A stretch of 36,769 bases of DNA from Sedimenticola thiotaurini (GTDB lineage: Bacteria > Pseudomonadota > Gammaproteobacteria > Chromatiales > Chromatiaceae), in NCBI GenBank assembly GCA_011051715.1, contig DRKP01000082.1, positions 1 through 36,769 on the forward strand, in the 5' to 3' direction. Below the pieces are notes generated by a model. That model was not told where the DNA came from. It saw nothing but the letters and a program-made list of their open reading frames with translations, and ran no database searches. This document shows positions 3,398 through 36,461 of this stretch, piece by piece (position 1 is the stretch's first letter; each line of letters starts with the position of its first letter). The translations under genes were made by a program, and so were the position numbers.

Positions 3398-6300
3398 TTA
3401 TTTCGCAGGCTTGTCTCCGAAGCGGGACGAGCCCTCCATGTCGTATATTCTTGGCCGCTCGGAAGTGGCCTCCCCTGTTTCATAGTTCCTCGCCAGCCAG
3501 GCAAGATCACGTGTCAGGCGGGTCCTGTTGCCGGCCTGGTCCTCCACTTCCACAAGGATCTCCCCATTACGGTCGGAAAGGGGCTCCGGCAGGGTGACGT
3601 GTACGATACCCTGCTCATCCGGCAGCGGAGGAGTTGGGAGGCAGCGGCGGTCGTCTCCCAGACAGATGCGCAGGGAGCCGGCCTTCACCCCGGATGGAAT
3701 ATCGGCCACGCCGATATGGAGGCGGATCAACTTGCCGTTGTCCAGGTCCCCCGCCAGTGTCAGGGTCGGCGGTGTGGTATCGAGCAGGTAGCCTCTTCCA
3801 CCCGGCGCGCCGATATCGATCCAGCGCGCCAGCATGCCCAGTTCCTCGCTGGTCATTTCCGTAGGATGATCCGGACCGAAATCGACGTCGTTCCACGCCT
3901 TGTCCTTGGGGCCGTACTGGTCGTCACTGCGGTTGTCGGTGCGCTGGTTGGCGGCCTTCCAGTAGAGCAGACTGCCCCGGGAGTTCATGAAGCGCATGTA
4001 CTTGGTCAATTGCGGGCGCCTGAGAATTCCGTTGCGCCCCGTTCCCTTGTGGCGCAGGGCCTTGGGGACACAGTTCTGCCAGCGGTCGGCGACCAGGCAG
4101 CGCCAGGTGGATCCCTTGCCGGTGCCGGGGACATCCAGCTTCAGCCCGGCCGCCGCATCGGAGCCCGAATGGCAGCTGGCGCAGCGGCGCCGAAGGATTG
4201 GCAGGATGTCCCGGTCGAACTCGATCTGCAGGCCAAACCCCTCTGCCTGGCGGATTTCCGGTTTCCCGGGAGGGCCGCCCGCCAGCAGAGGTACCGTGCC
4301 CTGACCCAGCAGGACGGGGCGGTAATCCTTCCGGTAGGCTATGGTGCCGCCAAAGTCCTTTCCCGGCTTTCCATGGACATGGCAGCCGCCGCACACCTTG
4401 ATCTCGCCCGGGGCGAGATGCTGCCAGCTCTGGTCACTGTTGAGGGTTCGGCCCTGGCAGTCGACGGTCTGCATCAGGTAGGGCATGTTGGCGGGAAACC
4501 GGACCAGGAACGAGCTGTCGATATCGCCGTCGGAATCCCTGACCGGTTTTCCCTGCCCGGTGAAGTGGCGTACCGGAAACTCCCCCAGGATAACGACCCG
4601 TTCGCCGGCGGGGGTAAACAGCCTGCCCCACTCCTTGCGGATATTGGGCTGCACGCCGAGAATCCGCATGCCACAGATCTCCCCGTCTTCATAGTCGACG
4701 GTATCCGTGCCCTGCAGGCTCCACTGGTTCTCCCCCTCGAACGGCAGTCCACCCAGCGGGCGTGTCTCGCGGTTGATGACGGAGGCGGCTCCCAGCAGGC
4801 CGAAAGGCGTCCCTTTCGGAAGATAGTCGGTATTGGCGGCGCGCAGATGGGCGGCTGGCCGGTCGGCGGGCCTCTCCACCCCGTATATCTCCGAATAGGG
4901 GATGGCGGGGCGGGCCATCAGTTCATGCCACTTCCTGCTGTCCACCACCCGGATCATGTCGGAGGGGTGTTTCGATGTCTTGTCGGTGCCGATCTCGTAG
5001 ATCCCGGCATCGCACCCCGGGTTGTCCCTTCCAAGATAGGTCATGACATTGAGTGGGACACCCTGGCCGGAGCCATCGATCAGGGGAGGGCGGGGGCGCT
5101 TCAGGATCCAGCCGCTGGCAACCGTGCTGCACGGTCCCTTGCCCCAGGTGACCAGGAGCCGGTTTCCGGGGGCACCCCATGGGTGCCCCAGTTTACCGGC
5201 AAATGCCAGGGGGTCGGCGTACTCCGGATCGGAATACGCGGGCTTGGGCATGCCACGGGCAAAGGTGTCTTCACTGGTCGCCCAGGAGGCGAGGTTGACC
5301 ATGCCGCGGGGGCGGTAGATGTCGCCGATGCCCGGTTTGTCGTCCGGTCCGATCCCTTCCTGGCCCTCCGGGGGCAGCGGAAATCCCACGATGATTCCGA
5401 GACCGTTGTTGTTGGCCCGGTAGTAGTCGGTCACCCAGACACGACCGTCGCTGCTCTGACCGGCAAAATGGGCCGCCTTGTGATTCTGCCCGAAGCGACC
5501 GGTGTAGTTGGCCCTGTGCTGGCCATAGAGGGCGAATGGAACGGAACCGTCGGGATACTGGCTGTAGAGATGGAAGAAATTGGCCAGGGTGCCGAATCGT
5601 CCGGGCGATCCGTTGGTGGTGCGAAACGGGAGGGCACCGAACAACTGCCAGCTGGAGTAGCTCAACCGTCCATCGAGCAGTTGAAAGGGGTGTTGCTGCC
5701 CTCCCAGGCCATGATAACCGGTCAGTTCGATGTTCTTTCCGTTCGTGTCCATCACATGGATGCGGGCGATCCTGCGATTGCTGTCGGTCGCTCCGAACAC
5801 CAGTGTCTGGTAAGGGTTCCCGCGCGTCGAGGTGAAGGCGATGCGCCCGTCCGAGAGCCATGCGGGACCCGAGTCGAAGGTTTTCGGTTCATGGGGAAGC
5901 GTGGCGACCCGGCCACTGTCGATGTCGACGATCAGCAGACGGGACTGCTGTGCGGCCAGACGTTTGACGGGGAGTGTGGCCCAGAACATCTGCTTCTTGT
6001 TTTCCGCTGCCGGATCGAGAATCGGTGCTGGAAACCTGAACTTGTAGGGCTTCAGGGATCCTTCGAAGAGGGCGAACAGGACCCGTCTGCCGTCGAAGGA
6101 GACAGCGGGATCCATGGCGGCACAGGCCTGTTCCATGCTGGAACGGCTGGAACAGTCGTAGAGCACACGTTCCTCCCCTGACGGGGCGCGGTAGACCAGG
6201 TCGCAGGGGCCGGAAAACCCGCCGAAGAAATGGGAGACGTCGGGCAGGACATCGTAGATGTCCGCCCCTCTCATCACCCGGGATGCCGGCTTTTTTTCGC

Positions 6301-6505
6301 CGTCGATGACCACGGTGCCCTTCAGTGTCACCTGGCGGTCGGTACGCTCACAGCGGATGTAGACGATGGGATAGGAGATTCCCCCGTGGCCGGCAGGGGA
6401 AGAGGCGGCGGAGGCGTGGAGGGGCCAGAGCAGCAGGGCAACCGGGAGAAGAAGCGCCAGTATCAGGCCATGGTGGGTTCCACTTCCTCCTGTGTTCCGC
6501 TTCAT
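3398..6505 (-). CDS. Secreted dihaem c-type protein related to hydrazine synthase alpha subunit (HzsA-like)
   Basis: This encodes 1035 residues. A signal peptide is evident (basic MKRN start, hydrophobic LILALLLPVALLLWPLHASA), so the protein is periplasmic or extracellular. Residues ~130-360 look like a WD40/TolB-type propeller (SDGRIAFTSTRGNP, DGRLSYSSW, SDGRVWVTDYYR). Two haem-c motifs follow: CGGCH at 705-709 and CASCH at 775-779. The order and flanking pattern (propeller, APGEIKVCGGCH, then FDRDILPILRRRCASCH) match the HzsA-related family. HzsA of anammox bacteria takes part in N-N bond formation, but most relatives have no known reaction, so catalysis here must not be assumed. The stop of the upstream ligase overlaps this start (ATGA at 6502-6505), so the two are translationally coupled and the protein belongs to the EPS operon. 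Possible roles are redox modification of the glycan or electron transfer. Confidence 0.8.
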   Translation of the reverse strand: MKRNTGGSGTHHGLILALLLPVALLLWPLHASAASSPAGHGGISYPIVYIRCERTDRQVTLKGTVVIDGEKKPASRVMRGADIYDVLPDVSHFFGGFSGPCDLVYRAPSGEERVLYDCSSRSSMEQACAAMDPAVSFDGRRVLFALFEGSLKPYKFRFPAPILDPAAENKKQMFWATLPVKRLAAQQSRLLIVDIDSGRVATLPHEPKTFDSGPAWLSDGRIAFTSTRGNPYQTLVFGATDSNRRIARIHVMDTNGKNIELTGYHGLGGQQHPFQLLDGRLSYSSWQLFGALPFRTTNGSPGRFGTLANFFHLYSQYPDGSVPFALYGQHRANYTGRFGQNHKAAHFAGQSSDGRVWVTDYYRANNNGLGIIVGFPLPPEGQEGIGPDDKPGIGDIYRPRGMVNLASWATSEDTFARGMPKPAYSDPEYADPLAFAGKLGHPWGAPGNRLLVTWGKGPCSTVASGWILKRPRPPLIDGSGQGVPLNVMTYLGRDNPGCDAGIYEIGTDKTSKHPSDMIRVVDSRKWHELMARPAIPYSEIYGVERPADRPAAHLRAANTDYLPKGTPFGLLGAASVINRETRPLGGLPFEGENQWSLQGTDTVDYEDGEICGMRILGVQPNIRKEWGRLFTPAGERVVILGEFPVRHFTGQGKPVRDSDGDIDSSFLVRFPANMPYLMQTVDCQGRTLNSDQSWQHLAPGEIKVCGGCHVHGKPGKDFGGTIAYRKDYRPVLLGQGTVPLLAGGPPGKPEIRQAEGFGLQIEFDRDILPILRRRCASCHSGSDAAAGLKLDVPGTGKGSTWRCLVADRWQNCVPKALRHKGTGRNGILRRPQLTKYMRFMNSRGSLLYWKAANQRTDNRSDDQYGPKDKAWNDVDFGPDHPTEMTSEELGMLARWIDIGAPGGRGYLLDTTPPTLTLAGDLDNGKLIRLHIGVADIPSGVKAGSLRICLGDDRRCLPTPPLPDEQGIVHVTLPEPLSDRNGEILVEVEDQAGNRTRLTRDLAWLARNYETGEATSERPRIYDMEGSSRFGDKPAK

Positions 6506-14717: not shown

Positions 14718-14721
<4 letters not shown>

Positions 14722-15083
14722 GGTTCGATCGTACTCCGTAATTTCTTATACAGTCCCGTCATCAGGCGGCTGGTCTGATCCAGGAGATTGCTCAATTGCT
14801 GATTCGGTGGCATCAGGCCTACCCTGATAGCAATCTCCTGCTGGGTGTCGAGTTCACTGAGAGAACCCCTGGCCATGCTGAGAAAGTTCAACAGCTCTTT
14901 ACGGCTGCTGCGTGCAGCCCCTTCGGCAATATTGCTGGGAATGGATACAGCCGATCTTCGCATTTGCGACACCAAACCAAATAATTCGTGCCGGGGGAAG
15001 TTTTCTGTCGTCCTGTAGATTTCTTCCACGAGATCCATCGCGCTCTTCCAGGCTTCCAGTTGTGCATGTGGCTTCCTTTCCAT
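14718..15083 (-). CDS. Four-helix-bundle protein (S23 rRNA-intervening-sequence / Avd-like family)
   Basis: This encodes 121 residues from the ATG at 15083, chosen because GGAGG lies 5 bp upstream; the ATG at 15095 overlaps that site. The sequence has family landmarks: [40 protein letters not shown] and [14 protein letters not shown]. Members are small helical bundles found either inside 23S rRNA intervening sequences or scattered singly near sugar-nucleotide genes; function is unknown, although the related Avd protein binds nucleic acid. Here it interrupts the rmlB-rmlA junction and is flanked by inverted copies of the heptamer repeat (15121-15147 and 14681-14720). Its end overlaps the rmlA start (ATGA). 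It has nothing obvious to do with rhamnose synthesis and looks like an inserted passenger. Confidence 0.85.
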
Positions 15084-15120
15084 AATAACCTCCATTCCAT
15101 AATAAAATCGTTCCCTCCCT

Positions 15121-15147
15121 ACTCCTCACTCCTCACCCCTCACTCAA
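15121..15147. repeat. Heptamer repeat, copy 2 (CTCACTC/CTCACCC units)
   Basis: ACTCCTCACTCCTCACCCCT followed by CACTCAA. It is an inverted counterpart of copy 1. The rmlB stop codon (15133-15135) and its last three sense codons lie inside it, so the repeat has replaced the native rmlB terminus. Confidence 0.8.
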
Positions 15148-16215
15148 CACCCCCAGCCGCTCCCTCCTATAGCTTCCATCCTGCACCCGGCGGCACCAGT
15201 TGAGGTTGTCCAGGTACCACTGCACCGTCTTGCGCATGCCGGTGTCGAAGGTCTCTTCCGGGACCCAGCCCAGCTCCTGCTCGATCCTGTCGGCGTCGAT
15301 GGCGTAGCGCCTGTCGTGACCGGGACGGTCGGTGACATGGGTGATCAGCTGCTCATAGCGGTCGATGCCGGCGTGGGGGGAGGGGGCCAGCTGGTCCAGG
15401 GTGGCGCAGAGGGTCTTCACCACCTCCAGGTTGGTCTTCTCGTTGTGGCCGCCGATGTTGTAGGTCCGTCCCGGCGTGCCTTCGGTCAACACCTTCCACA
15501 GGGCGCGAACGTGGTCGTCGACGTAGAGCCAGTCGCGGATCTGGTCACCCTTGCCGTAGATGGGCAGCGGCTTGCCATCGAGGGCGTTGAGGATGACCAG
15601 GGGGATCAGCTTCTCCGGGAACTGGTAGGGACCGTAGTTGTTGGAGCAGTTGGTGATCAGGGTCGGCAGGCCATAGGTCTCGTGCCACGCCCGGACCAGG
15701 TGGTCGGAGGAGGCCTTGCTGGCGGAGTAGGGGGAGTTGGGCTTGTAGGGGTCCTCCTCCCGGAACAGGCCGGTCGGACCCAGGCTGCCGTAGACCTCGT
15801 CGGTGGAGACGTGATGGAAGCGGAAATCACGTTTGCCCTCGTCGTCGAGTCCGTTCCAGTAGTGGCGCGCCGCCTCCAGCAGGGTATAGACGCCGACGAT
15901 GTTGGTCTGGATGAAGGTGGAGGGGCCATCGATGGAGCGGTCCACGTGGGATTCGGCGGCCAGGTGCAGGATGGCGTCGGGGCGGTACTGCTGGAACAGC
16001 CGCCGGACCTCGGTTTCGTCACAGACGTCCACCTGTTCGAACCGGTAGTTGGGGTGGTCGGCCACCGCCTCCAGCGATTCCAGGTTGCCGGCGTAGGTGA
16101 GTTTGTCCACGTTGACCAGGGTCAGATCGTGGTGCTCGATCAGGTAACGGATCACGGCGGAGCCGATGAAGCCGGCGCCACCGGTGACCAGCAGGGTCTT
16201 GGGATGGAGGGTCAT
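15133..16215 (-). CDS. rmlB: dTDP-glucose 4,6-dehydratase
   Basis: This 360-residue extended short-chain dehydrogenase converts dTDP-glucose to dTDP-4-keto-6-deoxyglucose. The NAD-binding TGGAGFIG is at 11-18, the catalytic STDEVYG near 137-143 and the Y163-x3-K167 pair in SPYSASK. Length is normal. The C-terminal residues SEG and the stop are encoded by the heptamer repeat; this is beyond the catalytic core and should be harmless. It is first of the rml genes in transcription order, after a 117-bp gap behind the sulfurylase/APS kinase fusion. Confidence 0.96.
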
Positions 16216-16332: not shown

Positions 16333-18033
16333 TCACTCCCGTTCGTCCAGGTAGCCTTCCTTGAACAGGTACAGCAGCACCATCTGCGCCGCCTGGGCCG
16401 GGGTCAGGTCGCTGGTGTCGATGTCGATCTCCGGGTGCTCCGGTGCCTCGTAGGGATCGCTGATGCCGGTGAACTCGGGGATGATCCCCTTGCGCGCCTT
16501 GGCGTACAGCCCCTTGCGGTCGCGCGCCTCGCACACCTCCAGCGGGGTGGAGACGTGGATCTCGATGAAGGCGCCGTGCTGCTCGATCAGCTCGCGCACC
16601 GCCCGCCGGGTCTCGGTGTAGGGGGCGATGGGGGCGCAGATGGCGACACCGCCGTTCTTGGTGATCTCACTGGCGACGAAGCCGATGCGGCGGATATTGA
16701 TATCGCGGTCACGCTTGGAGAAACCCAGTTCACTGGAGAGATTCTGGCGCACGATATCGCCATCGAGCAGGGTCACCGGCCGGCTGCCGGATTCGATCAG
16801 CTTGGCATAGAGGATGCCGGCGATGGTGGACTTGCCGGAACCCGAGAGGCCGGTGAAGAACAGGGTGAAGCCCTGGGTGGCGCGGGACGGATAGGCACGG
16901 CTCAGTTCCTGGATGACGTTGGGATAGCTGAACCAGTCCGGGATCTCCTGGTTGCAGGTGAGGGCCTGCTTGAGCTGGCTGTTGCTGAAGCTCTCGCCCT
17001 CGATACCACTCTTCCGGAGTTGGCTGACGGGAAGGAAGCGCTTCTTCGACGGGGCGTAGCGCCACTCTTCCGCGGGAACGATGCGGATGCCCAGATCGTC
17101 CTGGTGCTTGAGTGCAAGCTCCTGGGCCTGGTAGGTGGCGTAGTGCCTGGTATCACTGCCGTTCAGGGGCGGGGAGGCATGGTCCGGTCCCACCAGGAAA
17201 TGGCTGCAGCCATAGTTGCGGTTGACGATGGCGTGCCACAGGGCCTCGCGCGGACCGGCCATGCGCATCGCCAGGGGCAGCAGCGACAGGGCCGACAGAT
17301 TGTGTGGAAAATGGTGGCGGATCGCCTTGTAGCAGTGCACCCGGGCGTAGTAGTGCAGATCGCCGGGCTTGGTTACCCCCACCGCCGGGTGCAGCAGGAT
17401 GTGACAGCCATGCTCCTTGGCGGAGCTGAGGATCAGTTCCCGGTGCAGCCGGTGGATGGGATTGCTGGAGTGGAAGGCCAGCACCTGGTTCCAGCCCATC
17501 TTGCGGAACAGGCTGCGCATCTCCTCCGGCGTGTCCCACAGGGTCTCGAACTCGTAGTGGACCGGCAGCTGCACCCCTTCGAGCCGGCCGGAGAGGTAGG
17601 TTCCCTGCACCTGCTCCAGCAGGTGTCGCACTCCCGGGTGGCGGTCGGAATCGGTGCCGTAGACGGCAATCGCCTCGCGCGCCTTGTCCGGCTGCCAGAT
17701 CTCCTCCACGGTCAGGACGGCGGGCATGAACCCCTCCGCATCACGAAGGGCGATCTGTTCACCCGGTTCGATGCCGTCGGCGAATTCCGCCGGCACGTCG
17801 AGGGTGATGGGCATCGGCCAGAGGCGGCCGTCCGGCAGCTTCATGGTATCCAGCACCGCGTCATATTCGGCCTGGCCCATGAAACCGGTCAGGGGGCTGA
17901 ATCCACCATTCATCAGCAGTTCCAGGTCGCAGAGCTGGCGCTTGGACAGGGTGATGGACTTGAACCCGAGGGAGGCCTGCTTCAGCTCCTCGGCACGGTC
18001 GTCGTCCACCAACAGCATGGTTGCTTCATTCAT
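16333..18033 (-). CDS. Sulfate adenylyltransferase-like / adenylylsulfate kinase fusion; sulfurylase active site degenerate
   Basis: 566 residues: an ATP sulfurylase-like domain (about 1-385) fused to an APS kinase domain (about 388-566). The kinase part has an intact Walker A (GLSGSGKST, 395-403), DGD at 424-426 and NIRRIGFVA, so it should phosphorylate APS to PAPS, the sulfate donor. In the sulfurylase part the family motif Q-x-R-N-P reads HSSNP (188-192) and G-R-D-H-A-G reads GPDHAS (282-287). Both signature arginines are gone, while the HxxH pair (His194, His197) remains. The domain therefore may no longer make APS, or may bind another ligand. AAAGGA lies ahead of the ATG. Its place between uppP and rmlB suggests sulfation or another modification of the EPS, which is inference. 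Confidence 0.88.
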
Positions 18034-18068: not shown

Positions 18069-18094
18069 CACCCCTCACTCCTCACTCCCTATCC
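18069..18094. repeat. Heptamer repeat, copy 3
   Basis: ACACCCCTCACTCCTCACTC followed by CCTATC, in the same orientation as copy 2. It fills the space before the sulfurylase/APS kinase gene and contains the uppP stop (18089-18091). There is no inverted partner or small gene next to it, so it may be a scar or an empty site. Confidence 0.7.
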
Positions 18095-18883
18095 CAGCCC
18101 AAGCAGCACCGCCCCCAGAACCAGCCGGTAGAGCACGAACGGGAACATCCCCATCTGTTCGATCAGGCGCAGGAACAGGAAGATGCAGAGGTAGGCGCTG
18201 GCGAAGGAGAGGGCGCTTCCCAGCAGCAGCTCCCGGCCCAGAATGGGTTCGCTGCCCTGGACCACGTCCAGCGCCAGCACCGCGCCCGACATCAGGATGG
18301 TGGGGATCGACAACAGGAACGAGAAACGGGCGGCCGCCGCCCGCGTCAGCCCCAGCATCAGCCCGGCGGTCATGGTGATGCCCGAGCGGGAGGTGCCGGG
18401 AATGATGGCCAGGCACTGAAACAGGCCGATGGTAACCGCATCCCGCCAGTGGATGGCGTGTTCGTCCCGGGTTCTCTTCCCCCTGATGTCGTACCACCAC
18501 AGCAGCAGGCCGAACACGATGGTGGCGATGGCGATCACCAGGGTGGAGCGCAAATCGGTTCCCACCAGGGTCTTGAACAGGCCGCCAACGATCACGATGG
18601 GTACGGTGGCCACGATGATCATCCAGGCGAGTCGCGCGTTCTGCGTGGTCTCCCCGCCGCCCAGGGAGCGCAGCAGGTCGCGGATCATCAGCCACAGATC
18701 GTGGCGGAAATAGATGATCACCGCTCCCAGGGAGCCCAGGTGCAGGGCGATGTCGAACCCCAGGCCCTGATCCACGTACCCGAACAGATGCGGCACCAGG
18801 ATCAGGTGGGCAGAGCTGGAGATCGGCAGAAACTCGGTGAAGCCCTGGATCAGGGAGAGGATCAGTATCTGGGTGGTTTCCAT
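18089..18883 (-). CDS. uppP: Undecaprenyl-diphosphatase
   Basis: This 264-residue polytopic membrane protein dephosphorylates undecaprenyl diphosphate, returning lipid carrier to peptidoglycan and surface-polysaccharide synthesis. Both active-site motifs are present: GFTEFLPISSSAH (14-26) and PGTSRSG (162-168), between strongly hydrophobic helices. Length is normal for BacA/UppP. Its placement in an EPS/sugar-nucleotide run suggests a dedicated copy that supports high carrier flux. It is 55 bp upstream of the sulfurylase/APS kinase gene, with heptamer copy 3 between them. Confidence 0.96.
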   Translation of the reverse strand: METTQILILSLIQGFTEFLPISSSAHLILVPHLFGYVDQGLGFDIALHLGSLGAVIIYFRHDLWLMIRDLLRSLGGGETTQNARLAWMIIVATVPIVIVGGLFKTLVGTDLRSTLVIAIATIVFGLLLWWYDIRGKRTRDEHAIHWRDAVTIGLFQCLAIIPGTSRSGITMTAGLMLGLTRAAAARFSFLLSIPTILMSGAVLALDVVQGSEPILGRELLLGSALSFASAYLCIFLFLRLIEQMGMFPFVLYRLVLGAVLLGLG

Positions 18884-19021: not shown

Positions 19022-19393
19022 CTATAGGACGAATCTCCTCACTCCCCTGACCAGTCGGTCTACATTGAAATTGATGAGAAGGCCGGTTCTTTTCCTCGAA
19101 AGTTTCATGTAAGTGAGTAGTTGCGCCTCGTGAACTTTGGTCAATGCGTCCACTGCTTTCAGTTCCAGAATCAAGGAATCATTGACGAGTATGTCGATTC
19201 GGTAGCCACAATCCAGTTCGATATCACGATAGGTGATAGGTACGGGTACCTGGGCCCGGCACTGTATGCCTTTCTTCTGTAGCTCGTAGAACAGGCATTT
19301 TTCGTACGCTGATTCAAGCAGGCCTGGCCTCAAGGCTCGATGGACGTCTATCGCGCATCCAATAACCGCATGTGCCAATACATCCCTCTCCAT
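19022..19393 (-). CDS. GxxExxY family protein (PD-(D/E)XK nuclease-like)
   Basis: 123 residues. The name-giving motif is G24-L-L-E27-S-A-Y30. A nuclease-like core follows: D67 in YRIDILV, then E77-L-K79 in LILELKA, the spacing of a PD-(D/E)XK active site. The family is widespread in environmental genomes, usually as single genes of unknown function. AGGGAGG lies 7 bp before the ATG. It sits between galE and uppP, is lower in GC than both, and is bracketed by inverted CACAGAG repeats, so it looks like a passenger rather than an EPS gene. A nicking or repair role in spreading the flanking repeats is possible but speculative. Confidence 0.88.
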   Translation of the reverse strand: MERDVLAHAVIGCAIDVHRALRPGLLESAYEKCLFYELQKKGIQCRAQVPVPITYRDIELDCGYRIDILVNDSLILELKAVDALTKVHEAQLLTYMKLSRKRTGLLINFNVDRLVRGVRRFVL

Positions 19394-27510: not shown

Positions 27511-27618
27511 ATGACCGGAATTCCCACTTTCTTTCCCGACCCGGCCGCCGCCGGGACTCCACTCTCCGACCATGATTCGTCCCCGCTGCAGGCCGCAGTA
27601 GTGGAGGGGGGGCGATGA
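27511..27618 (+). CDS. Possible 35-residue leader or remnant ORF before the FleR-like gene
   Basis: An open frame starts at ATG 27511 (MTGIPTFFPDPAAAGTP...) and ends in a TGA that overlaps the next ATG (ATGA at 27615-27618). It lies entirely downstream of the sigma-54 promoter. The upstream GAAAG is a weak ribosome-binding site. It is where fleS stands in Pseudomonas, but the peptide shows no kinase motif. It could be a coupling leader, a relic or chance; there is no homologue I recognise. Confidence 0.25.
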   Translation: MTGIPTFFPDPAAAGTPLSDHDSSPLQAAVVEGGR

Positions 27619-28940
27619 GCGCTCACCTGCTGCTGGTCGAAGACGACGACGAGCTGGGCCGGACGCTGCAGCAGGCGCTGCAGCGGGAGGGCTACCGGGT
27701 CACGCTGGTGGCCGACGCGCAGGCGGCCCGGGAGTTGCTGCTGCGGGAGAGGACGGCGCTGGTGATCGCCGAGCTGGGGCTGCGCCGGCAGGACAGCGTC
27801 GATCTGCTGGAGGCGGTGCGCCAGGCGCAGCCGACGCTGCCGCTGCTGTTCCTCGCCGCCGGCGGACAGATGGAGCAGGCGGTGGCGGCCATGCGTGACG
27901 GCGCGGCGGACTGCCTGAGCAAGCCCTTCGACACCGGCCTGCTGCTGGGCAGGGTCCGTGCCCAGGTTCCCCCGGCCCCGGACGACGAGGTGGTGGTGGA
28001 GGACCTGCGCAGTCGCGAGCTGCTGGAACTGGCCGGCCGTGTCGCCCGCAGCAACGCCACGGTGATGATCTGCGGCGAGAGCGGCACCGGCAAGGAGGTG
28101 TTTGCCCGCTTCATCCATCGCCAGTCACCGCGTCGCGACCACCCTTTTGTCGCCATCAACTGCGCTGCCATCCCCGAGAACATGCTGGAGGCGGTGCTGT
28201 TCGGCCATGAGAAGGGCGCCTTCACCGGTGCCCACCAGTCGGCGCCGGGCAAGTTCGAGATGGCTCAGGGCGGAACCCTGCTGCTGGACGAGATCTCCGA
28301 GATGAGCCTCGCGCTGCAGGCCAAGCTGCTGCGGGTGCTGCAGGAGAAGGAGGTGGAACGGGTCGGCGGACGCAGGCTGATCCCGCTGGATGTGCGGGTG
28401 CTGGCCACCACCAACCGAAACCTGCGGGAGGAGGTGGCCGCCGGCCGCTTCCGTGAGGATCTCTATTACCGGCTCAACGTCTTTCCCCTCTACATCCCGC
28501 CGCTGCGTGAGCGCCAGCGCGATCTGCTGCCGCTGGCGCGGTTTCTGCTGCGACGCCACTGCCGGGCCCAGTCCCGGCCGGTGCCGGAACTGGACGAGGA
28601 GGCCGGACGGCTGCTGCTCGGTCACCACTGGCCCGGCAACGTGCGTGAACTGGACAACGTGGTGCAGCGGGCCCTGATCCTGTGCGACGGGGCCCGTATC
28701 GGCGCCGCCGGGATCCGGTTCGAGGCCGATGCCCCGGGGCACGACGTCGCGGCGGGGTCCTCCGGACAGCGGCGCCTGAGCGACGACCTGCGCTCGGTCG
28801 AGGAGCAGATGATCCTGGACGCCCTGGCGGAGGGGAACGGCAGCCGCAAGCAGGCCGCCGAGCGACTGGGGATCAGCCAGCGGACGCTGCGCTACAAGAT
28901 CGCCCGGCTGCGGGACGCCGGCGTCGCCATTCCCGGTTGA
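27615..28940 (+). CDS. fleR: FleR-like sigma-54-dependent response regulator with altered receiver site
   Basis: 441 residues; a strong GGAGGGGG lies just before the ATG. Layout: receiver (about 4-115), sigma-54 AAA+ domain (about 128-370; Walker A GESGTGKE 154-161, GAFTGA 201-206, Walker B TLLLDEI) and Fis-type helix-turn-helix (about 405-435, [19 protein letters not shown]). In the receiver the acidic pocket (E9, D10, D11) and Lys103 (LSKPF) are kept. The acceptor Asp aligns with Glu53 (LVIAELGL), and the conserved Thr of the switch aligns with Ala (LFLAAGG). No fleS kinase is adjacent. FleR normally turns on class III flagellar genes; this version may be constitutively active or regulated differently. 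It drives into fliE, 42 bp downstream. Confidence 0.88.
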
Positions 28941-29454: not shown

Positions 29455-31143
29455 ATGATGGAAGTGGTCAACGCTGACAACCCCGCAACGGGCCAGTTGA
29501 CGGTACAGAGCCTGGGCCGGAACCCGATCGTGCGCCAGCTGGCGGTGATGATCGGTATCGCCGCCAGCGTGGCGCTCGGCGTGGCGGTGGTGCTCTGGTC
29601 CCAGACCCCCAACTACAGCCTGCTGTTCGGCAACCTGGCGCCGAAGGATGCCACCGAGATCGTCGCCGCCCTGCAGCAGGCGGGTATCGACTACAAGGTG
29701 GACGAGAACACCGGTGCGGTGATGGTGCCCAGCGCCAGCGTGCAGCAGGCGCGCATGAAGCTGGCCGGCGCCGGGCTGCCGCGCAGCAACAGCATCGGCT
29801 ACGAGCTGCTGGAGAAGGAGACCGGATTCGGCACCAGCCGGGCGCTGGAGAAGGCCCGGTTCCATCGCGCGCTGGAGGGGGAGCTGGCGCGCACCATCGC
29901 CAGCCTGGCCAATATCGAGTCGGCACGGGTGCACCTGGCGACCCCCCGGCAGTCGGTGTTCGTGCGCAAGCAGAAGAAGCCCTCCGCCTCGGTGGTGGTC
30001 AATCTCTACCCGGGACGTACCCTGGAGAAGCAGCAGGTGGCCGCCATCATCCATCTGGTGGCGTCCAGCGTCCCGGAACTGGAGGCCGGCCGCGTCACCG
30101 TGGTGGACAACCGCGGGCGCATGCTCAACGGTCCCCGGGACAGCCTGGAGATGTCCCTCACCAGCAGCCAGTTCGACTACACCAAGCAGCTGGAAGAGCA
30201 CTACCGCGAGCGGGTGACCGGTATCCTGGAACCGATCCTGGGCATCGACAACGTTCGGGCGCAGGTGACCGCGGTGGTCGATTTCACCGTCACCGAGCAG
30301 ACCGAGGAGCGCTTCAATCCCGATCTCCCGGCCCTGCGCAGCGAGCAGGTGGACGAGCAGGCCACCACCGAGAGCCCGGTGCAGGGCATCCCCGGTGCCC
30401 TCAGCAACCAGCCACCGGCCGCCGGCACCGCGCCGGAACAGGCGGTGGCCGGCAACAACGGCGATGGCACGGCACCGCCGGCCCCGGTCAACACCAGCAA
30501 GCGGGCCACCCGCAACTATGAGCTGGACAAGACCATCAGCCACACCCGTCTCTCCACCGGCCAGCTGCGCCAGCTCTCGGTCGCGGTGGTGGTGGACGAC
30601 CGGGTGGAGCAGGGGGCCGACGGCGCGGTGATCCGCACCCCCCGTACCCCGGAGGAGATCAGCCGCATCACCGAGCTGGTGAAGAAGGCGATCGGTTTCG
30701 ATGCCACCCGTGGTGACAGTGTACAGGTGATCAACGCCGCCTTCATGGCGCCGCCACAGGCCGAGCCGCTGCCCGAGCCCCCCCTGTGGGAGCAGCCCTG
30801 GGTGTGGGACCTGGCCAAGCAGGTGGGAGGCATCCTGCTGGTACTGCTGCTGATCCTGTTCGTGCTGCGGCCCACCATGAAGCGGCTCACGGCGCCGCCG
30901 GTGATCGAACGCATCGATGGCGAGGCCGGTGACGGCGACGGCGGCGAGGCGGGCGAGGGCGCCGGCGCCCAGGGGGAGGGCGGTGGTACGCACGGGCTGG
31001 AGAAGAAGGGCCTGGACGCCCTCGGCCTGCCCGGACCGGAGGACTATGAGCAGACCCTGGAGGCCGCCCGGCAGATGGTGGAGGAGGATCCCAAGCGGGT
31101 GGCGCAGGTGGTGAAGAACTGGGTGGCAGAAGATGGCGGATGA
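29455..31143 (+). CDS. fliF: Flagellar MS-ring protein FliF
   Basis: 562 residues; ATGs at 29455 and 29458 are both possible behind GAGGAAG. FliF forms the MS ring in the inner membrane. A first membrane helix (about 25-45, VMIGIAASVALGVAVVLW), the large periplasmic ring-building region (SYELLEKETGFGTS-type block, RVHLATPRQSVFVRKQKKPS), and a second membrane helix (about 459-477, GGILLVLLLILFVLRP) are visible, followed by a cytoplasmic tail that binds FliG. An unusual Gly/Glu/Asp-rich stretch (about 487-515) separates the second helix from the FliG-binding end. The stop overlaps the fliG start by 11 bp. Confidence 0.96.
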   Translation: MMEVVNADNPATGQLTVQSLGRNPIVRQLAVMIGIAASVALGVAVVLWSQTPNYSLLFGNLAPKDATEIVAALQQAGIDYKVDENTGAVMVPSASVQQARMKLAGAGLPRSNSIGYELLEKETGFGTSRALEKARFHRALEGELARTIASLANIESARVHLATPRQSVFVRKQKKPSASVVVNLYPGRTLEKQQVAAIIHLVASSVPELEAGRVTVVDNRGRMLNGPRDSLEMSLTSSQFDYTKQLEEHYRERVTGILEPILGIDNVRAQVTAVVDFTVTEQTEERFNPDLPALRSEQVDEQATTESPVQGIPGALSNQPPAAGTAPEQAVAGNNGDGTAPPAPVNTSKRATRNYELDKTISHTRLSTGQLRQLSVAVVVDDRVEQGADGAVIRTPRTPEEISRITELVKKAIGFDATRGDSVQVINAAFMAPPQAEPLPEPPLWEQPWVWDLAKQVGGILLVLLLILFVLRPTMKRLTAPPVIERIDGEAGDGDGGEAGEGAGAQGEGGGTHGLEKKGLDALGLPGPEDYEQTLEAARQMVEEDPKRVAQVVKNWVAEDGG

Positions 31144-32158
31144 ACAACAGCAGGCCGAATCCTCCGAGCTGAAGGGGGTCGAGCGGGCGGCGATCCTGAT
31201 GCTGGCCCTGGGTGAGAAGGATGCGGCCACCATTCTCTCCCACATGGGGCCGAAGGAGGTGCAGGAACTGGGGCTGGCGATGGCCAGCATGTCCAGCGTC
31301 AGCACCGAGCAGATGGAGCAGGTGATGCGCTCCTTCGTCGACACCCTGCGCAGCCAGACCGCCCTGGGGGTGGACTCGGACGACTACATCCGTAACGTCC
31401 TGACCCAGGCGCTGGGCGCCGACAAGGCGGGCGGCGTCATCGACCGCATCCTGCTGGGGCGCAACAGCAAGGGGCTGGAGCAGCTGAAATGGATGGACCC
31501 CCGTTCCATCGCCGAGCTGATCCGGCTGGAGCATCCCCAGATCATCGCCATCGTGCTGTCGTTCCTGGAGCCGGACCAGGCGGCCCAGGTACTGGAGGTG
31601 TTTCCGGAGCGGGTGCGTCCGGACATCGTGATGCGCATCGCCACCCTCGACGGTATCCAGCCGGCGGCACTGCAGGAGCTGGACGAGATCCTGGAGAAAC
31701 AGTTCTCCGGCGCCAACAACGTCAAGTCCTCCAACCTGGGCGGGGTGAAGACGGCGGCGGACATCCTCAACCTGGTGGACGGCTCCATGGAGAGCAGCAT
31801 CATGGAGCAGGTGAGCAGCACCGATCAGGACCTGGCGCAGCAGATCCAGGACAACATGTTCGTGTTCGACAACCTGATCGACATCGACGACCGCGGCATC
31901 CAGACCCTGTTGCGCGAGGTGGCCTCGGACCAGCTGCTGCTGGCCCTGCGCGGCGCCGACGACGCATTGAAGGAGAAGATCTTCAAGAACATGTCGAAGC
32001 GGGCGGCGGAGATGCTGCGCGACGACCTGGAGGCGGCGCCACCGGCCCGGGTCAGCGACGTGGAGGCGGCGCAGAAGGAGATCCTGGCGGTGACCCGCCG
32101 CCTTGCCGACGCCGGCGAGATCATGCTGGGAGGCGCCGGTGGCGAAGAGTTCCTCTAA
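31133..32158 (+). CDS. fliG: Flagellar motor switch protein FliG
   Basis: 341 residues, normal length. FliG couples the stator to rotation and binds the FliF tail. The N-terminal ERAAILMLALGEKDAATILS, the middle LEHPQIIAIVLSFLEPDQAA and the C-terminal IDDRGIQTLLREVASDQLLL with charged residues KEKIFKNMSKRAAEML are all standard. The ATG lies inside the end of fliF (11-bp overlap), and its own end overlaps the fliH start by 20 bp, so the three are translated as a coupled set. Confidence 0.97.
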   Translation: MADEQQQAESSELKGVERAAILMLALGEKDAATILSHMGPKEVQELGLAMASMSSVSTEQMEQVMRSFVDTLRSQTALGVDSDDYIRNVLTQALGADKAGGVIDRILLGRNSKGLEQLKWMDPRSIAELIRLEHPQIIAIVLSFLEPDQAAQVLEVFPERVRPDIVMRIATLDGIQPAALQELDEILEKQFSGANNVKSSNLGGVKTAADILNLVDGSMESSIMEQVSSTDQDLAQQIQDNMFVFDNLIDIDDRGIQTLLREVASDQLLLALRGADDALKEKIFKNMSKRAAEMLRDDLEAAPPARVSDVEAAQKEILAVTRRLADAGEIMLGGAGGEEFL

Positions 32159-32846
32159 GGGCCCGGTGGGCCGGGTCATCCCGGCGGAGAAGGTGGTGGG
32201 AGTGGAGCAGTGGCGCCCCCCCAGCATGGGGCAGCCGAATGCCAGCCATGTCCCGGGAGAGGCGCAGGGCTCCCTGCTCACCGCCGATCAGCTGGAGCAG
32301 TTGCAGAAGGAGGCCTACGAGGAGGGGTTCGATCAGGGCAGGAAGGCGGGCTTCGAATATGGCCACAAGGAGGCCCTGGCCGAGGGTCGGGAGCGTCTGC
32401 GTCAGTCGGTAGAACGCTTCGATGCCCTGCTGCAGACCCTCGACCGCCCGCTGCGCCTGCTCGACGACCAGGTGGAGCAGGAGCTGATCGCACTGGTGAT
32501 CACCATGGTGCGGCAGCTGGTGCGGCGCGAGGTGCGCATGGACCCGGGCCAGATCGTCGGCATCGTGCGCGAGGCGCTGGCGGTGCTGCCGGTGTCGTCG
32601 CGTAACGTACGCGTGGTGCTGCACCCGGACGACGCCACCCTGGTCCGGGAGATCTTCGACCTGAGTGATGGTGACCTGGGCTGGAAGATCGTGGAGGATC
32701 CGGTGCTCACCCGCGGCGGCTGCCGCATTCTCACCGACACCTCCCAGGTCGACGCCACCCTGGAGGCGCGCCTGGCTGCCGTCATCGCCCCCCTGCTGGG
32801 CGGTGAGCGGGGCGAGGATCAGGCCGAGCAGGAGGGGAGTGAATGA
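32139..32846 (+). CDS. fliH: Flagellar assembly protein FliH
   Basis: 235 residues from the GTG at 32139, chosen because GGGAGG lies 5 bp upstream; a TTG at 32103 would overlap fliG further. FliH regulates the FliI ATPase and links it to the export gate. The N-terminal VIPAEKVVGVEQWRPP, the GxxxG-like helix (EEGFDQGRKAGFEYGHKEALAEGRERL) and the C-terminal RNVRVVLHPDD and VEDPVLTRGGCRI are characteristic. The gene ends just before a dispersed repeat that separates it from fliI by 193 bp. Confidence 0.93.
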   Translation: MAKSSSKGPVGRVIPAEKVVGVEQWRPPSMGQPNASHVPGEAQGSLLTADQLEQLQKEAYEEGFDQGRKAGFEYGHKEALAEGRERLRQSVERFDALLQTLDRPLRLLDDQVEQELIALVITMVRQLVRREVRMDPGQIVGIVREALAVLPVSSRNVRVVLHPDDATLVREIFDLSDGDLGWKIVEDPVLTRGGCRILTDTSQVDATLEARLAAVIAPLLGGERGEDQAEQEGSE

Positions 32847-32857
32847 ATCTCTTTTTT

Positions 32858-33018
32858 CCCAGAGGGCACAGAGACCATCGATGGTTTGCCTCCCGATCCA
32901 TACGCCGGTCTGCCGGCGTACCTGCAGTGGCACATACTCATCCAACCCAGGCGAATGAACCCGGCGCAGCAGGAGCAGTGATCGGGATCTCTGTGCCCTC
33001 TGTGCTCTCTGTGGTGAA
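32858..33018. repeat. Inverted CACAGAG repeats between fliH and fliI
   Basis: AGAGGGCACAGAGA (32861-32874) is the exact inverse of TCTCTGTGCCCTCT (32988-33001); the right arm continues GTGCTCTCTGTGGTGAA to 33018. The 113-bp centre has no gene. The insert accounts for the 193-bp gap in an otherwise tight operon. It could fold into a stem in the mRNA, and the right arm ends 21 bp before the fliI ATG. Confidence 0.75.
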
Positions 33019-33039
33019 CACCCCCCGGGAACAGCCCCG

Positions 33040-34416
33040 ATGAACCCGGAACAGTCCATCAACCGCAGCCCCATCTGGCAGCGGCGCCTGCACGCCTACC
33101 ACTCCCGGCTGGAGCGGGTGCGCGGTCCGGTACTGGAGGGAAAACTGACCCGCATGGTGGGCCTTACCCTGGAGGCGGTGGGCTGCCGCGCCGCCATTGG
33201 TGACCAGTGCGACATCGTCAATGCCGGCGGCCAGAGGGTCGAGGCGGAGGTGGTGGGGTTCGCCGGTGAGAGCCTCTACCTGATGCCCACGGGAGATATC
33301 CGGGGTCTGGAGCAGGATGCCAGGGTGGTGCCCACCGGCAAGGCGGTGGAGGCGGTGGTGGGGGACCACCTGCTGGGGCGGGTGATCGACGGTGCCGGGC
33401 GGCCGCTCGATGGCAAGGGGCCGATCCATGCCGACCAGCGCCGCTCCCTGTCCGGGCAGAGCTTCAACCCGCTGGCGCGCACCCCGATTCGCGAGCCCCT
33501 GGACGTGGGGGTGCGCGCCATCAACGCCCTGCTCAGTGTCGGCCGCGGCCAGCGGCTGGGCCTGTTCGCCGGCTCCGGTGTCGGCAAGAGCGTGCTGCTG
33601 GGCATGATGACCCGCTATACCAATGCCGACATCACCGTGGTGGGGCTGATCGGAGAGCGGGGCCGGGAGGTGAAGGAGTTCGTCGAGAACATCCTCGGCG
33701 AGGAGGGGCTGGCGCGGGCGGTGGTGGTGGCGGTGCCGGCGGACAATCCTCCGCTGCGGCGCATGCACGGCGCCATGCTCGCCACCAGCATCGCCGAGCA
33801 CTTCCGCGACCAGGGCAAGCAGGTTCTGCTGCTGATGGACTCTCTCACCCGCTTCGCCCAGGCCCAGCGCGAGATCGCCCTCGCCATCCATGAACCGCCC
33901 GCCACCAAGGGCTATCCCCCCTCGGTGTTCGCCAAGCTGCCGCAGCTGGTGGAGCGCGCCGGCAACGGTGACAAGGGGGGAGGCTCCATCACCGCCTTCT
34001 ACACGGTGCTGGCCGAGGGAGACGACCAGAACGATCCCATTGCCGATGCCGCCCGGGCGATCCTGGACGGCCACGTGGTGCTGTCGCGCCGTCTCGCCGA
34101 GAGCGGCCACTATCCGGCGATCGACATCGAGGCCTCAATCAGCCGGGCGATGAGTGATATCACCAGCAAGGAGCATCAGGACGCCGCCCGTGGCTTCAAG
34201 CAGCTCTACTCCCTGTATCGCCGGAACCAGGATCTGATCAACGTGGGCGCCTACGAGCGGGGATCCGATGAACGCATCGATGCGGCCATCGAGGCGATCC
34301 CGGCGCTGGAGGCGTTCCTGCGCCAGGACATGAACACCCCGGTCTCCCTGCAGCAGAGCCTGTCCGACCTCATGACCCTGTTCCCGCCGCCGCCGGAGCG
34401 GGGCGGCAAGGCGTAG
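33040..34416 (+). CDS. fliI: Flagellum-specific export ATPase FliI
   Basis: 458 residues, normal length. It powers or energises unfolding of flagellar export substrates as a hexamer. Walker A AGSGVGKS (177-184), [13 protein letters not shown], Walker [18 protein letters not shown] and the FliI/YscN signature [21 protein letters not shown] are all present. The Shine-Dalgarno region is weak (CGGGAACAG), and the upstream gap is filled by a repeat, so expression relative to fliH could be reduced or depend on read-through. Confidence 0.97.
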
Positions 34417-34429
34417 GGCAGCGACCGGC

Positions 34430-34864
34430 ATGTCACCATCGAAACGATTCAGGCCGGTACAGCGCGTCGCCGAGTCCCGCGAGCGGAAGGCGGCCCGGGC
34501 GCTGGGCGAGTCCCGGCGGGAGCTGCAGGAACAGACGCGGCGGCTGGATGAGCTGAAGGCCTACCACCGGGAGTACCAGGAGCGCTTCCGGGGGGCATCC
34601 GCCGGCGGCATCTCCGCGGCCCAGCTGCACGAATACCGTGCCTTCCTGGCCAAGCTGGAACAGGCGATCCGGGAGCAGGAACAGCGGCTTGGTGCCGTGC
34701 GCCAGGAGTGCAGCGGACGCAAGGCGGCCTGGCAGGAGACCCATCAGCGCACCCAGGCCCTGGACAAGGTGATGGAGCGCTTCCAGGCGGAGGAGCGCCG
34801 CCTGCACGACAGCCGCGAACAGAAGGAGCTGGACGACCGCAACCAACGCGGGAGAAAGGGCTGA
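34430..34864 (+). CDS. fliJ: Flagellar export chaperone FliJ
   Basis: 144 residues, almost entirely a charged alpha-helical coiled coil (RFRPVQRVAESRERKAARAL, then LEQAIREQEQRLGAVRQEC). That composition, the length and the position 13 bp after fliI identify FliJ, the stalk-like subunit that fits into the FliI hexamer. No further fli gene follows on the plus strand; the operon meets the convergent fliK/flhB-like pair after 80 bp, with no clear terminator hairpin. Confidence 0.9.
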   Translation: MSPSKRFRPVQRVAESRERKAARALGESRRELQEQTRRLDELKAYHREYQERFRGASAGGISAAQLHEYRAFLAKLEQAIREQEQRLGAVRQECSGRKAAWQETHQRTQALDKVMERFQAEERRLHDSREQKELDDRNQRGRKG

Positions 34865-34944
34865 CGCGGGGTCCCTGACTGCACCAATTCCTTCGCACCG
34901 GGGGTGGCGCTCCTGCAGGCCTCTCACTGGTGGCGACCCTGGCC

Positions 34945-35226
34945 TCAGTACCCCGGTGGCCGGCGCCCCGATACCAGATAGGCGAAGGCGATCACCTCGG
35001 CGATGGCACGGTAGAGGGCCTCCGGGATCTCCTCCCCGAGGGGGATCTGGGCCAGGATGGCGGCCAGCTCCGCGTCCTCCTGCAGGGGCACGTCGTTGGC
35101 CCGGGCCAGCTCCAGGATGCGGCGGGCCACCTCGCCCTCGCCCTTGGCGGTGATGCGGGGGGCGTTCTCCCCGTCGTAGAGCAGGGCGATGGCCCGCTCC
35201 GGCGGTTGTTCCGGCTTCTCCCTCAT
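34945..35226 (-). CDS. FlhB C-terminal-domain homologue (EscU/YscU/HrcU family)
   Basis: 93 residues that match the cytoplasmic end of FlhB only: ALLYDGENAPRITAKGEGEV, then ILELARANDVPLQEDAELAA and the FYLVS-like IAFAYLVSGRR. The membrane domain and the N-P-T-H autocleavage loop are absent, so it resembles the free C-terminal fragment of FlhB. Such short homologues occur beside fliK in many gammaproteobacteria and may modulate the export switch. Its ATG overlaps the fliK stop (ATGA, 35223-35226), so it is coupled to fliK, the protein that triggers the same switch. Confidence 0.88.
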   Translation of the reverse strand: MREKPEQPPERAIALLYDGENAPRITAKGEGEVARRILELARANDVPLQEDAELAAILAQIPLGEEIPEALYRAIAEVIAFAYLVSGRRPPGY

Positions 35227-36461
35227 GCCTGCTCGTCCACCAGGCCGCCGCCGGCGCGGGGCGGCGTACCGGATTGCTCCTCCACAGTTCCCTGTCCGGC
35301 GTGCAGCCGGCCCACCTGGAGGCCGGCCCGCTGCAGTCTCTCCGACAGCAACGGCATCGACTCGCCGATGCGGTGGGCGCTGTCGGCACGGGCGGCGGTG
35401 AAGGTCCCGGACAGGGTGTCCCCGGCCAGGGTCAGCTGAACCCGCAACGGTCCCAGCCCCTTCAGATCCATCTCCAGGCGGACCGTCCAGCGCACCTGGT
35501 CCCGTTCACCCCCGCGGTCGCCCTCCCGCTCGAACCGGAGCAGCAGATGGTCCCAGCCCTCGGGCGTGCGCAGGGGCAGGTCGAACTGCCACACCTGCTG
35601 GCCGCTGTCGGCCGACGGCAGCGAGGCGAGCTGGTGGGTCAGGATGCGGGCAACCCCGCTCTCGCCGGTGGTGAGCAGCTCCGAGACCAGGGCGGGAAGC
35701 GTCGTCTCCGCCATCCGGTGTCCCGAAACGTCCGGAGGCCGGGGCGGCAGGCGCGGTGACCGGGACTGCTCCGTGGCGACACCGCGCAGCTGGGACAGCA
35801 GCCGCAGCAGGGACAGCTTCAGGTCGACGTCCTGGAGCCGTCCCCGCAGCAGGTGGGCCTCCAGGAACAGCCCCGAATGCCGGAATGCCTGGCGGATCGC
35901 CGCGGCGTCGGGCCTGGTCCCCTCCACCGTGGTCCGGGCCAGCACCCGCTCGACGGCGGCGGCCAGCGGTGCCGGCAACGGTCGCTCCGGCGTCCCCGGC
36001 GGCGCACCGGCGGTCGGGGCCGGCACCGGTTGGGCTGTGCTGCCGGTGGTGGGAGATGGACCGGGGGCGGCAGGCGCCGGACGGGGAGAGGCGGCAACAG
36101 CGGTGGACTCCAGTGTCCGCTGAAACTGTTCCAGCAGTGGCGCCAGGGGGCGCTGGCGGGGAAGCGCGTTGCGCAGGGCCGCCGCTTCTATCTCCGCCCT
36201 CGCTGTGGTGGAATCCGTCCGCACCAGTTCCAGACTTCGCCCCGTCTCCACCACACGCAGCTGCAGGACGCTGCCCGGCTGTGGCCGCAGCACCGTCTTG
36301 ACCGGGAGCCGCAGGGAGCCGATGGCCAGGAGCAGGCCATCGCTGCGTCTCTCCACCACCCGTGCCTGCAGAACCTGGCCGCTCCGCAGCGAGGCCAGGG
36401 CGTCGGTGCGAATCTGTTCGACCAGGAGCCTGGGGTTGCCGATGGGATCTGAAATCTGCAT
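35223..36461 (-). CDS. fliK: Flagellar hook-length control protein FliK
   Basis: 412 residues. FliK is the secreted ruler that stops hook growth and switches export to filament substrates. The N-terminal region (LRSGQVLQARVVERRSDGLL) is a small beta domain; residues about 105-165 are rich in Pro, Ala and Thr, typical of the low-complexity ruler part; the C-terminal Flg_hook domain is clear (VRWTVRLEMDLKGLGPLRVQ, then LSERLQRAGLQVGRLHAGQG). It is transcribed opposite to fliEFGHIJ and converges with fliJ. The Shine-Dalgarno sequence is weak; a perfect -10 box lies upstream. Confidence 0.88.
   Translation of the reverse strand: MQISDPIGNPRLLVEQIRTDALASLRSGQVLQARVVERRSDGLLLAIGSLRLPVKTVLRPQPGSVLQLRVVETGRSLELVRTDSTTARAEIEAAALRNALPRQRPLAPLLEQFQRTLESTAVAASPRPAPAAPGPSPTTGSTAQPVPAPTAGAPPGTPERPLPAPLAAAVERVLARTTVEGTRPDAAAIRQAFRHSGLFLEAHLLRGRLQDVDLKLSLLRLLSQLRGVATEQSRSPRLPPRPPDVSGHRMAETTLPALVSELLTTGESGVARILTHQLASLPSADSGQQVWQFDLPLRTPEGWDHLLLRFEREGDRGGERDQVRWTVRLEMDLKGLGPLRVQLTLAGDTLSGTFTAARADSAHRIGESMPLLSERLQRAGLQVGRLHAGQGTVEEQSGTPPRAGGGLVDEQA

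Follow-up and report, generated by a model that had tools for sequence, protein, structure and literature searches.

The fused gene and its neighbourhood

We analysed a 36,769-nucleotide stretch of the Sedimenticola thiotaurini genome (contig DRKP01000082.1), hereafter called the window. A fused gene is flanked by uppP and rmlB; the surrounding region also contains rmlA, rmlC, rmlD, galE and exosortase-A-associated genes. Its product has the domain order PUA_2, ATP-sulfurylase and APS_kinase, each far above the Pfam cut-off, and matches the NCBIfam model NF004040 (PRK05537, bifunctional sulfate adenylyltransferase/APS kinase) with 817.6 bits against an equivalog cut-off of 669.

15133..16215, minus strand: rmlB, dTDP-glucose 4,6-dehydratase, downstream neighbour (TIGR01181, 510 bits)
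16333..18033, minus strand: whole fused gene, 566 aa, ATG start, open frame
16417..16875, minus strand: APS kinase domain (PF01583), intact, residues 387-539 (Pfam)
16756..16764, minus strand: kinase DGD, residues 424-426
16825..16851, minus strand: kinase P-loop GLSGSGKST, residues 395-403
16897..17544, minus strand: ATP-sulfurylase domain (PF01747), degenerate, residues 164-379 (Pfam)
16969..16986, minus strand: SNSQLK replacing SGTxxR, residues 350-355 (alignment)
17173..17190, minus strand: GPDHAS replacing GRDHAG, residues 282-287 (alignment)
17359..17379, minus strand: GVTKPGD, the kept GxxKxxD loop, residues 219-225
17443..17454, minus strand: HRLH, the kept HxxH, residues 194-197
17458..17472, minus strand: HSSNP replacing QxRNP, residues 188-192 (alignment)
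17569..18015, minus strand: PUA_2 (domain I of ATP sulfurylase), residues 7-155 (Pfam)
18089..18883, minus strand: uppP/bacA, undecaprenyl-diphosphate phosphatase, upstream neighbour (Pfam, NCBIfam)

The left half of the window is an exosortase A/EPS-type region, since it holds genes for an exosortase-A-associated decarboxylase (TIGR03099, 1880-3118) and acyl-CoA ligase (TIGR03098, 6502-8088). A 1035-aa protein encoded at 3398-6505 (minus strand) gives a weak match to PF18582 (hydrazine synthase alpha middle domain, E 1e-9), with 38.5 bits against an NCBIfam cut-off of 800, and also matches PD40. Two small genes on the minus strand accompany the sugar genes: a PD-(D/E)XK_3 (PF13366) gene between galE and uppP (19022-19393), and, with rmlA and rmlB on either side, a 125-aa gene (14718-15095) whose product we take to resemble a four-helix-bundle S23-type protein. 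Flagellar genes (fliF, fliG, a fliI-type ATPase and a fliK-like gene) occupy 29455-36461, with a sigma-54 response regulator ahead of them at 27615-28940.

Anion-site arginines of the sulfurylase domain are missing

The first-pass annotation had read HSSNP for QxRNP and GPDHAS for GRDHAG in the sulfurylase domain, next to a kinase with its P-loop and DGD kept. We find both replacements at residues 188-192 and 282-287, and both kinase motifs in place (GLSGSGKST; LDGDIVR, 423-429). In the alignment with ATP sulfurylases that had been proposed as a check, the same columns of the Aquifex enzyme (2GKS) read FQTRNPMHRVH and VGRDHAS, which rules out an alignment accident as the source of the motif loss. 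The loss also extends beyond what had been noted: the third motif, SGTxxR, has become SNSQLK, while HxxH and GxxKPGD stay. All three anion-motif arginines (R190, R283 and R355) are absent, and Q188 is gone too. Set against PRK05537, the protein shows the score, domain order and HxxH of the family, but its QxRN, GRD and SGTxxR motifs read HSSN, GPD and SNSQLK.

Roles for QxRN, GRD, HxxH and SGTxxR are described in PMC3779200, where the SGTxxR arginine belongs to the pyrophosphate site. An N-terminal domain stripped of its holders for sulfate, alpha-phosphate and pyrophosphate would most likely have no sulfurylase activity, and, as judged from sequence, the sulfurylase half is very probably without catalytic power. 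HxxH, N191, D284, H285 and the GxxKxxD loop are still present, so weak residual activity is possible. The retention of HxxH, N191, GxxKxxD and H285 would also suit a domain that still works as an ATP sulfurylase despite changes in its site, or one that acts on another oxyanion. We consider this very improbable: the three anion-site arginines are all missing, the RNP and GRD loops are described in the literature as strictly conserved across ATP sulfurylases of every metabolic role, and the clade of the window protein has no uniform replacement motif, since position 188 holds H or Q, position 190 mainly S or T, and position 191 N, K, R or Q. For the earlier idea that the domain acts on another substrate, we found no evidence.

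Comparison with characterised enzymes

The predicted fold of the window protein is confident (pLDDT 90.4, pTM 0.79) and matches the structures 1i2d (Z 54.0, 562 aligned, 3.0 A), 2gks (Z 47.6, 522 aligned, 5.1 A) and 3cr8 (Z 38.5, 487 aligned, 3.3 A). The bifunctional enzyme of Aquifex aeolicus (2GKS) has the same architecture, with 40% identity in the sulfurylase and 58% in the kinase. It has all seven of the catalytic positions that we scored (Q188, R190, N191, H194, H197, R283 and H285), whereas four of the seven are intact in the window protein.

The Thiobacillus denitrificans enzyme (3CR8, Q3SM86) shares with the window protein the domain order, live kinase motifs and a degenerate sulfurylase site, with 71% identity in the kinase (168 positions) and 37% in the sulfurylase domain. 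The two sites differ in detail: 3CR8 keeps Q188 and R190 and has Q for N191, Q for H197 and GGEH for GRDH, while the window protein keeps N191 and H197. 3CR8, a two-domain hexameric APS kinase, is reported to lack ATP sulfurylase activity (Gay et al. 2009, by its title; described in PMC13213808). With the same two-domain order and predicted fold, its sulfurylase residues missing and its kinase motifs present, the window protein would appear to be of the 3CR8 kind. By the first-pass annotation, its reading would fall if the motif variant were the norm in a proven active subfamily. The variant is indeed the norm in its subfamily, but activity is not known for any of the members, and the analogue with a solved structure has been reported as inactive.

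In the APS kinase of Entamoeba histolytica (23VK, by name), an inactive sulfurylase-like domain likewise precedes a live kinase. Unlike the window protein, it is a dimer with a short linker, its domain is without the substrate-binding loop, and its N-terminal part is distant. According to PMC13213808, deletion of the domain lowers kcat about 100-fold, with a warning from the authors about destabilisation, and single interface mutations lower it 21- to 60-fold. The Entamoeba interdomain tyrosine corresponds to Y160 of the window protein, which is Y in 34, F in 36 and H in 14 of 95 degenerate proteins; it is not strictly conserved among them, and we rejected it as an explanation.

The ATP sulfurylase of Penicillium chrysogenum (1I2D) is the best sequence match and a near-best structure match of the window protein over its full length, and also its mirror image, with a live sulfurylase and an allosteric kinase-like domain whose P-loop is broken (GYMNSGKDA). 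The window protein falls outside this kind, having an intact P-loop and lost sulfurylase motifs. In the fungal enzymes, the literature has the dead kinase domain serving as an allosteric site (PMC6715247 and PMC3734648 are also cited).

Sources of APS and users of PAPS

The first-pass annotation had suggested that the sulfurylase domain may be a structural or regulatory remainder beside a live kinase, with APS coming from elsewhere, and had proposed a search for a second sat or cysN-cysD. A different contig of the genome encodes one further PF01747 protein, a Sat with the canonical motifs (QTRNPMHRAH, GRDHAG), and aprA is found as two contig-end pieces, probably one gene split by assembly; both genes support that view. 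The other half of the search came back empty: PF01507, which matches in all 14 control genomes, has no match in this genome, rated 99.99% complete, and both CysD and a CysH-type reductase are accordingly missing from the matches. Only one full APS kinase is encoded in the genome, that of the window protein, the other match being a 48-codon stretch (22.9 bits).

A search for sulfotransferases, likewise suggested earlier, yields two genes on other contigs, C49 (Sulfotransfer_1 above cut-off) and C146 (241 aa), and none among the 29 window ORFs scanned with Pfam. The position of the fused gene had been taken as a hint of EPS sulfation. The two sulfotransferases and the missing CysH-type reductase fit sulfation as the use of PAPS; the window ORFs, without a sulfotransferase, do not add to the EPS link, and neither does the nearest relative (L003), in which a ThiF gene lies downstream in place of rmlB. 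An epimerase (L005) or RdgC (L006 and L075) lies upstream in other relatives, so that conserved linkage to uppP and rmlB does not hold in the few examined. Elsewhere among relatives, a sulfotransferase gene adjoins the fused gene (G201), a flippase and a sulfotransferase follow it (G413), or nucleotide-sugar genes are close to it (G159 and G162). The link to EPS thus rests on the rml, galE and uppP genes of the window and on these other relatives, and sulfation of surface polysaccharide is plausible.

The motif loss is shared by a clade

We scanned contigs with the window's own peptides and took the best 80 of 153 loci, in which close relatives are over-represented; two unfused loci (L080 and L082) were excluded from the counts. 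Among the remaining 78 fused loci of these best 80, QTRNP, HxxH and GRDHAG are kept in 7 and not in 71, and wherever the kinase P-loop and DGD are visible they are retained. For the class, sampled evenly, 39 of 70 full-length fused rows score 7 on the seven catalytic positions, one scores 6 and 30 score 1 to 4. The contig-scan set also has rows at 5 and 6, mostly from sulfate-reducer-type MAGs, and the decay is therefore graded in that set. Some entries are common to both data sets: the contig places of L010 and G388 are the same, and in the tree L021 is identical to the G307 protein.

None of the 39 distinct sequences that make up the window's clade keeps R190, R283 or G351, whereas H194 (39/39), D225 (39/39), G282 (37/39) and H285 (33/39) are largely retained. 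All 45 intact relatives still have both R190 and R283, indicating that the motif loss is due to neither chance nor sequencing error. A pseudogene or a sequencing error is likewise out, given the open frame, the low dN/dS in relatives and the clade-wide motif.

This pattern of kept and lost residues would suit a pocket that acts as a ligand sensor: with the adenosine side and the first histidine kept and the phosphosulfate and pyrophosphate side lost, it would bind an adenine nucleotide and thereby tune the kinase. In Allochromatium vinosum Sat, as described in PMC3779200, the equivalents of the kept G282 and H285 bind ribose and those of Q188-N191 bind phosphosulfate, and the fungal mirror case offers a dead domain acting as an allosteric site. 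However, H194, D225 and G282 may be kept for the fold alone, and the ribose contact of residue 283 is a backbone oxygen, so that its side chain tells little. We regard such a sensor as a minor possibility.

Selection on the two halves

When 45 intact and 76 degenerate sequences are compared, 54 of the 56 kinase sites that are conserved in the intact set remain so in the degenerate one (90% or more), as do 28 of 82 sites in the sulfurylase domain. The commonest losses are R283, T352, R190, G351, A196, G289, N191 and H197. Averaged over 92 degenerate sequences, retention is 0.92 for domain I, 0.74 for domain II, 0.54 for domain III and 0.98 for the kinase. Median dN/dS is 0.075 for the sulfurylase domain and 0.035 for the kinase in degenerate pairs (0.099 and 0.073 in intact pairs), values from a rough method on hand-picked pairs (16 degenerate, 7 intact), with dS near or above 1 in many of them and undefined for L003/L004.

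If the sulfurylase domain were a relic in decay that has no role and persists only because a fusion is not easily undone, this would account for the many catalytic-site positions that drift freely and differently in each lineage, and for a sulfurylase dN that is 2.3-fold the kinase dN in degenerate pairs and 1.4-fold in intact pairs. Against such a relic, the domain's dN/dS of near 0.08 is not above that of intact pairs, domain I averages 92% identity at conserved sites, and the domain is present in the relatives examined, although the search itself favoured such relatives. We find a relic improbable; the best reading is that purifying selection maintains the sulfurylase fold, as a scaffold or a kinase-supporting module.

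Degenerate copies accompany another ATP sulfurylase

The even sample covers 369 genomes of the class, of which 71 matched. Five were dropped: G265 (a 132-residue piece), G342, G207 and G386 (unfused Sat), and G106, whose fused gene (L190, G106:C28:75636-76958) has 7 in-frame stops and partly intact motifs and is an apparent pseudogene of the family. G373, with intact motifs, a cut gene and no other sulfurylase found, fell to the length filter. Fused genes were thus counted in 65 genomes, 28 degenerate and 37 intact, with G246 (gene in two contig pieces, 7/7 motif residues) counted as intact and G310 (one 6/7 copy and one 1/7 copy) as degenerate. The 1/7 copy of G310 (L181, G310:C31:24422-25996) adjoins, divergently, cysD (G310:C31:26265-27146) and a frame of 649 aa that contains an APS kinase domain, and the second fused copy of that genome has 6/7 catalytic residues. 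G273 carries two degenerate fused paralogues (L126 and L146) and a separate full-length APS kinase match.

Another ATP sulfurylase is found in 27 of 28 degenerate genomes, but among the 37 intact genomes in 5 (Fisher p 3.5e-12, a value inflated by relatedness; the contrast is clustered by lineage). In the 27 it is an unfused Sat in 22 and CysD in 5, where the equation of an extra PF01747 with unfused Sat is partly taken from match counts. G396, a degenerate fused gene with no other sulfurylase found, is the sole degenerate exception in the class sample. aprA is present in 18 of 28 degenerate genomes versus 1 of 37 intact ones. The contig-scan set (best 80 of 153) points the same way: counted by eye, a second PF01747 occurs in 63 of its 71 degenerate genomes and in none of its 7 intact ones, and most of the 8 degenerate genomes without one are MAGs and may be incomplete. 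aprA exceeds its cut-off in 32 of 43 degenerate genomes, including that of the window, and in 0 of 7 intact ones, among the 50 contig-scan genomes tested. On the tree there are 2 to 3 independent contrasts, too few for a sign test to reach significance; on average the second trait changes in the same direction in 1.6 of them, and seldom in the opposite one. These results show an association of the degenerate state with another ATP sulfurylase, not proof of cause.

The decay arose more than once

We built trees without the motif columns. A quick tree of 141 rows gives 7 state changes, at least 5 of them by well-supported branches, with two 6/7 rows inside a degenerate clade scored as intact. 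There are 6 changes (at least 3) in a 109-row tree, 5 in a careful 42-row tree (3-5 across bootstraps, with starred branches requiring at least 1) and 3 in a class-only tree. Placing all degenerate rows in one clade, a group that was defined once earlier trees had been inspected, is rejected (p-AU 0.0235), and with it a single origin of the decay. The motifs are intact in the Aquifex and fungal enzymes, so loss rather than gain is likely. 3CR8 clusters with three degenerate class-sample proteins (100/99 support), apart from the window's clade; the window protein does not share its degenerate state with 3CR8 by descent within one clade. With separate clades and the one-clade tree rejected, the two seem to have reached the same functional kind separately.

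Discussion

We propose, with a probability of roughly 0.75, that the window protein is a PAPS-forming APS kinase rather than a bifunctional enzyme. APS would be supplied by the separate dissimilatory Sat, by the AprA-containing APS reductase or by both, and the kinase would turn it into PAPS. Sulfotransferases are the most likely consumers of this PAPS, because the genome is without a CysD/CysH-type protein. The dead domain may be kept as an oligomer scaffold or as a support for the kinase, by analogy with the proposal for T. denitrificans and the measurements in Entamoeba. Counting against this explanation are G396, the five intact genomes with another sulfurylase and the non-strict Y160.

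An APS kinase with a dead sulfurylase is already known. What is new here is the repeated loss, mostly where a second APS source exists. In the open-licence literature we found no paper on repeated loss of the sulfurylase domain across lineages or on its tie to an APS source, and none that pairs the word pseudoenzyme with ATP sulfurylase. We give a slim chance to a bolder extension: the domain would be disarmed repeatedly in bacteria where Sat/AprA or CysDN provides APS, and in the window's clade the selective loss, with the residues for sulfate, phosphate and pyrophosphate gone and G282, H285, H194 and D225 kept, would leave a half-pocket. If true, this half-pocket could bind APS or another adenine nucleotide and so gate how far the kinase taps the pool of APS that serves energy metabolism.

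The NCBI equivalog model names the window protein bifunctional, though by its residues the sulfurylase half is very probably dead. Many relatives may be misnamed likewise, as 28 of the 65 class-sample genomes with a fused gene carry a degenerate copy. Wherever degenerate fused genes receive the bifunctional name, genome annotation and metabolic models would count too many ATP sulfurylases. The recurrent loss, linked to the presence of another APS source, also yields a set of naturally occurring pseudo-domains, each at its own stage, for probing what a dead domain contributes to its live partner.
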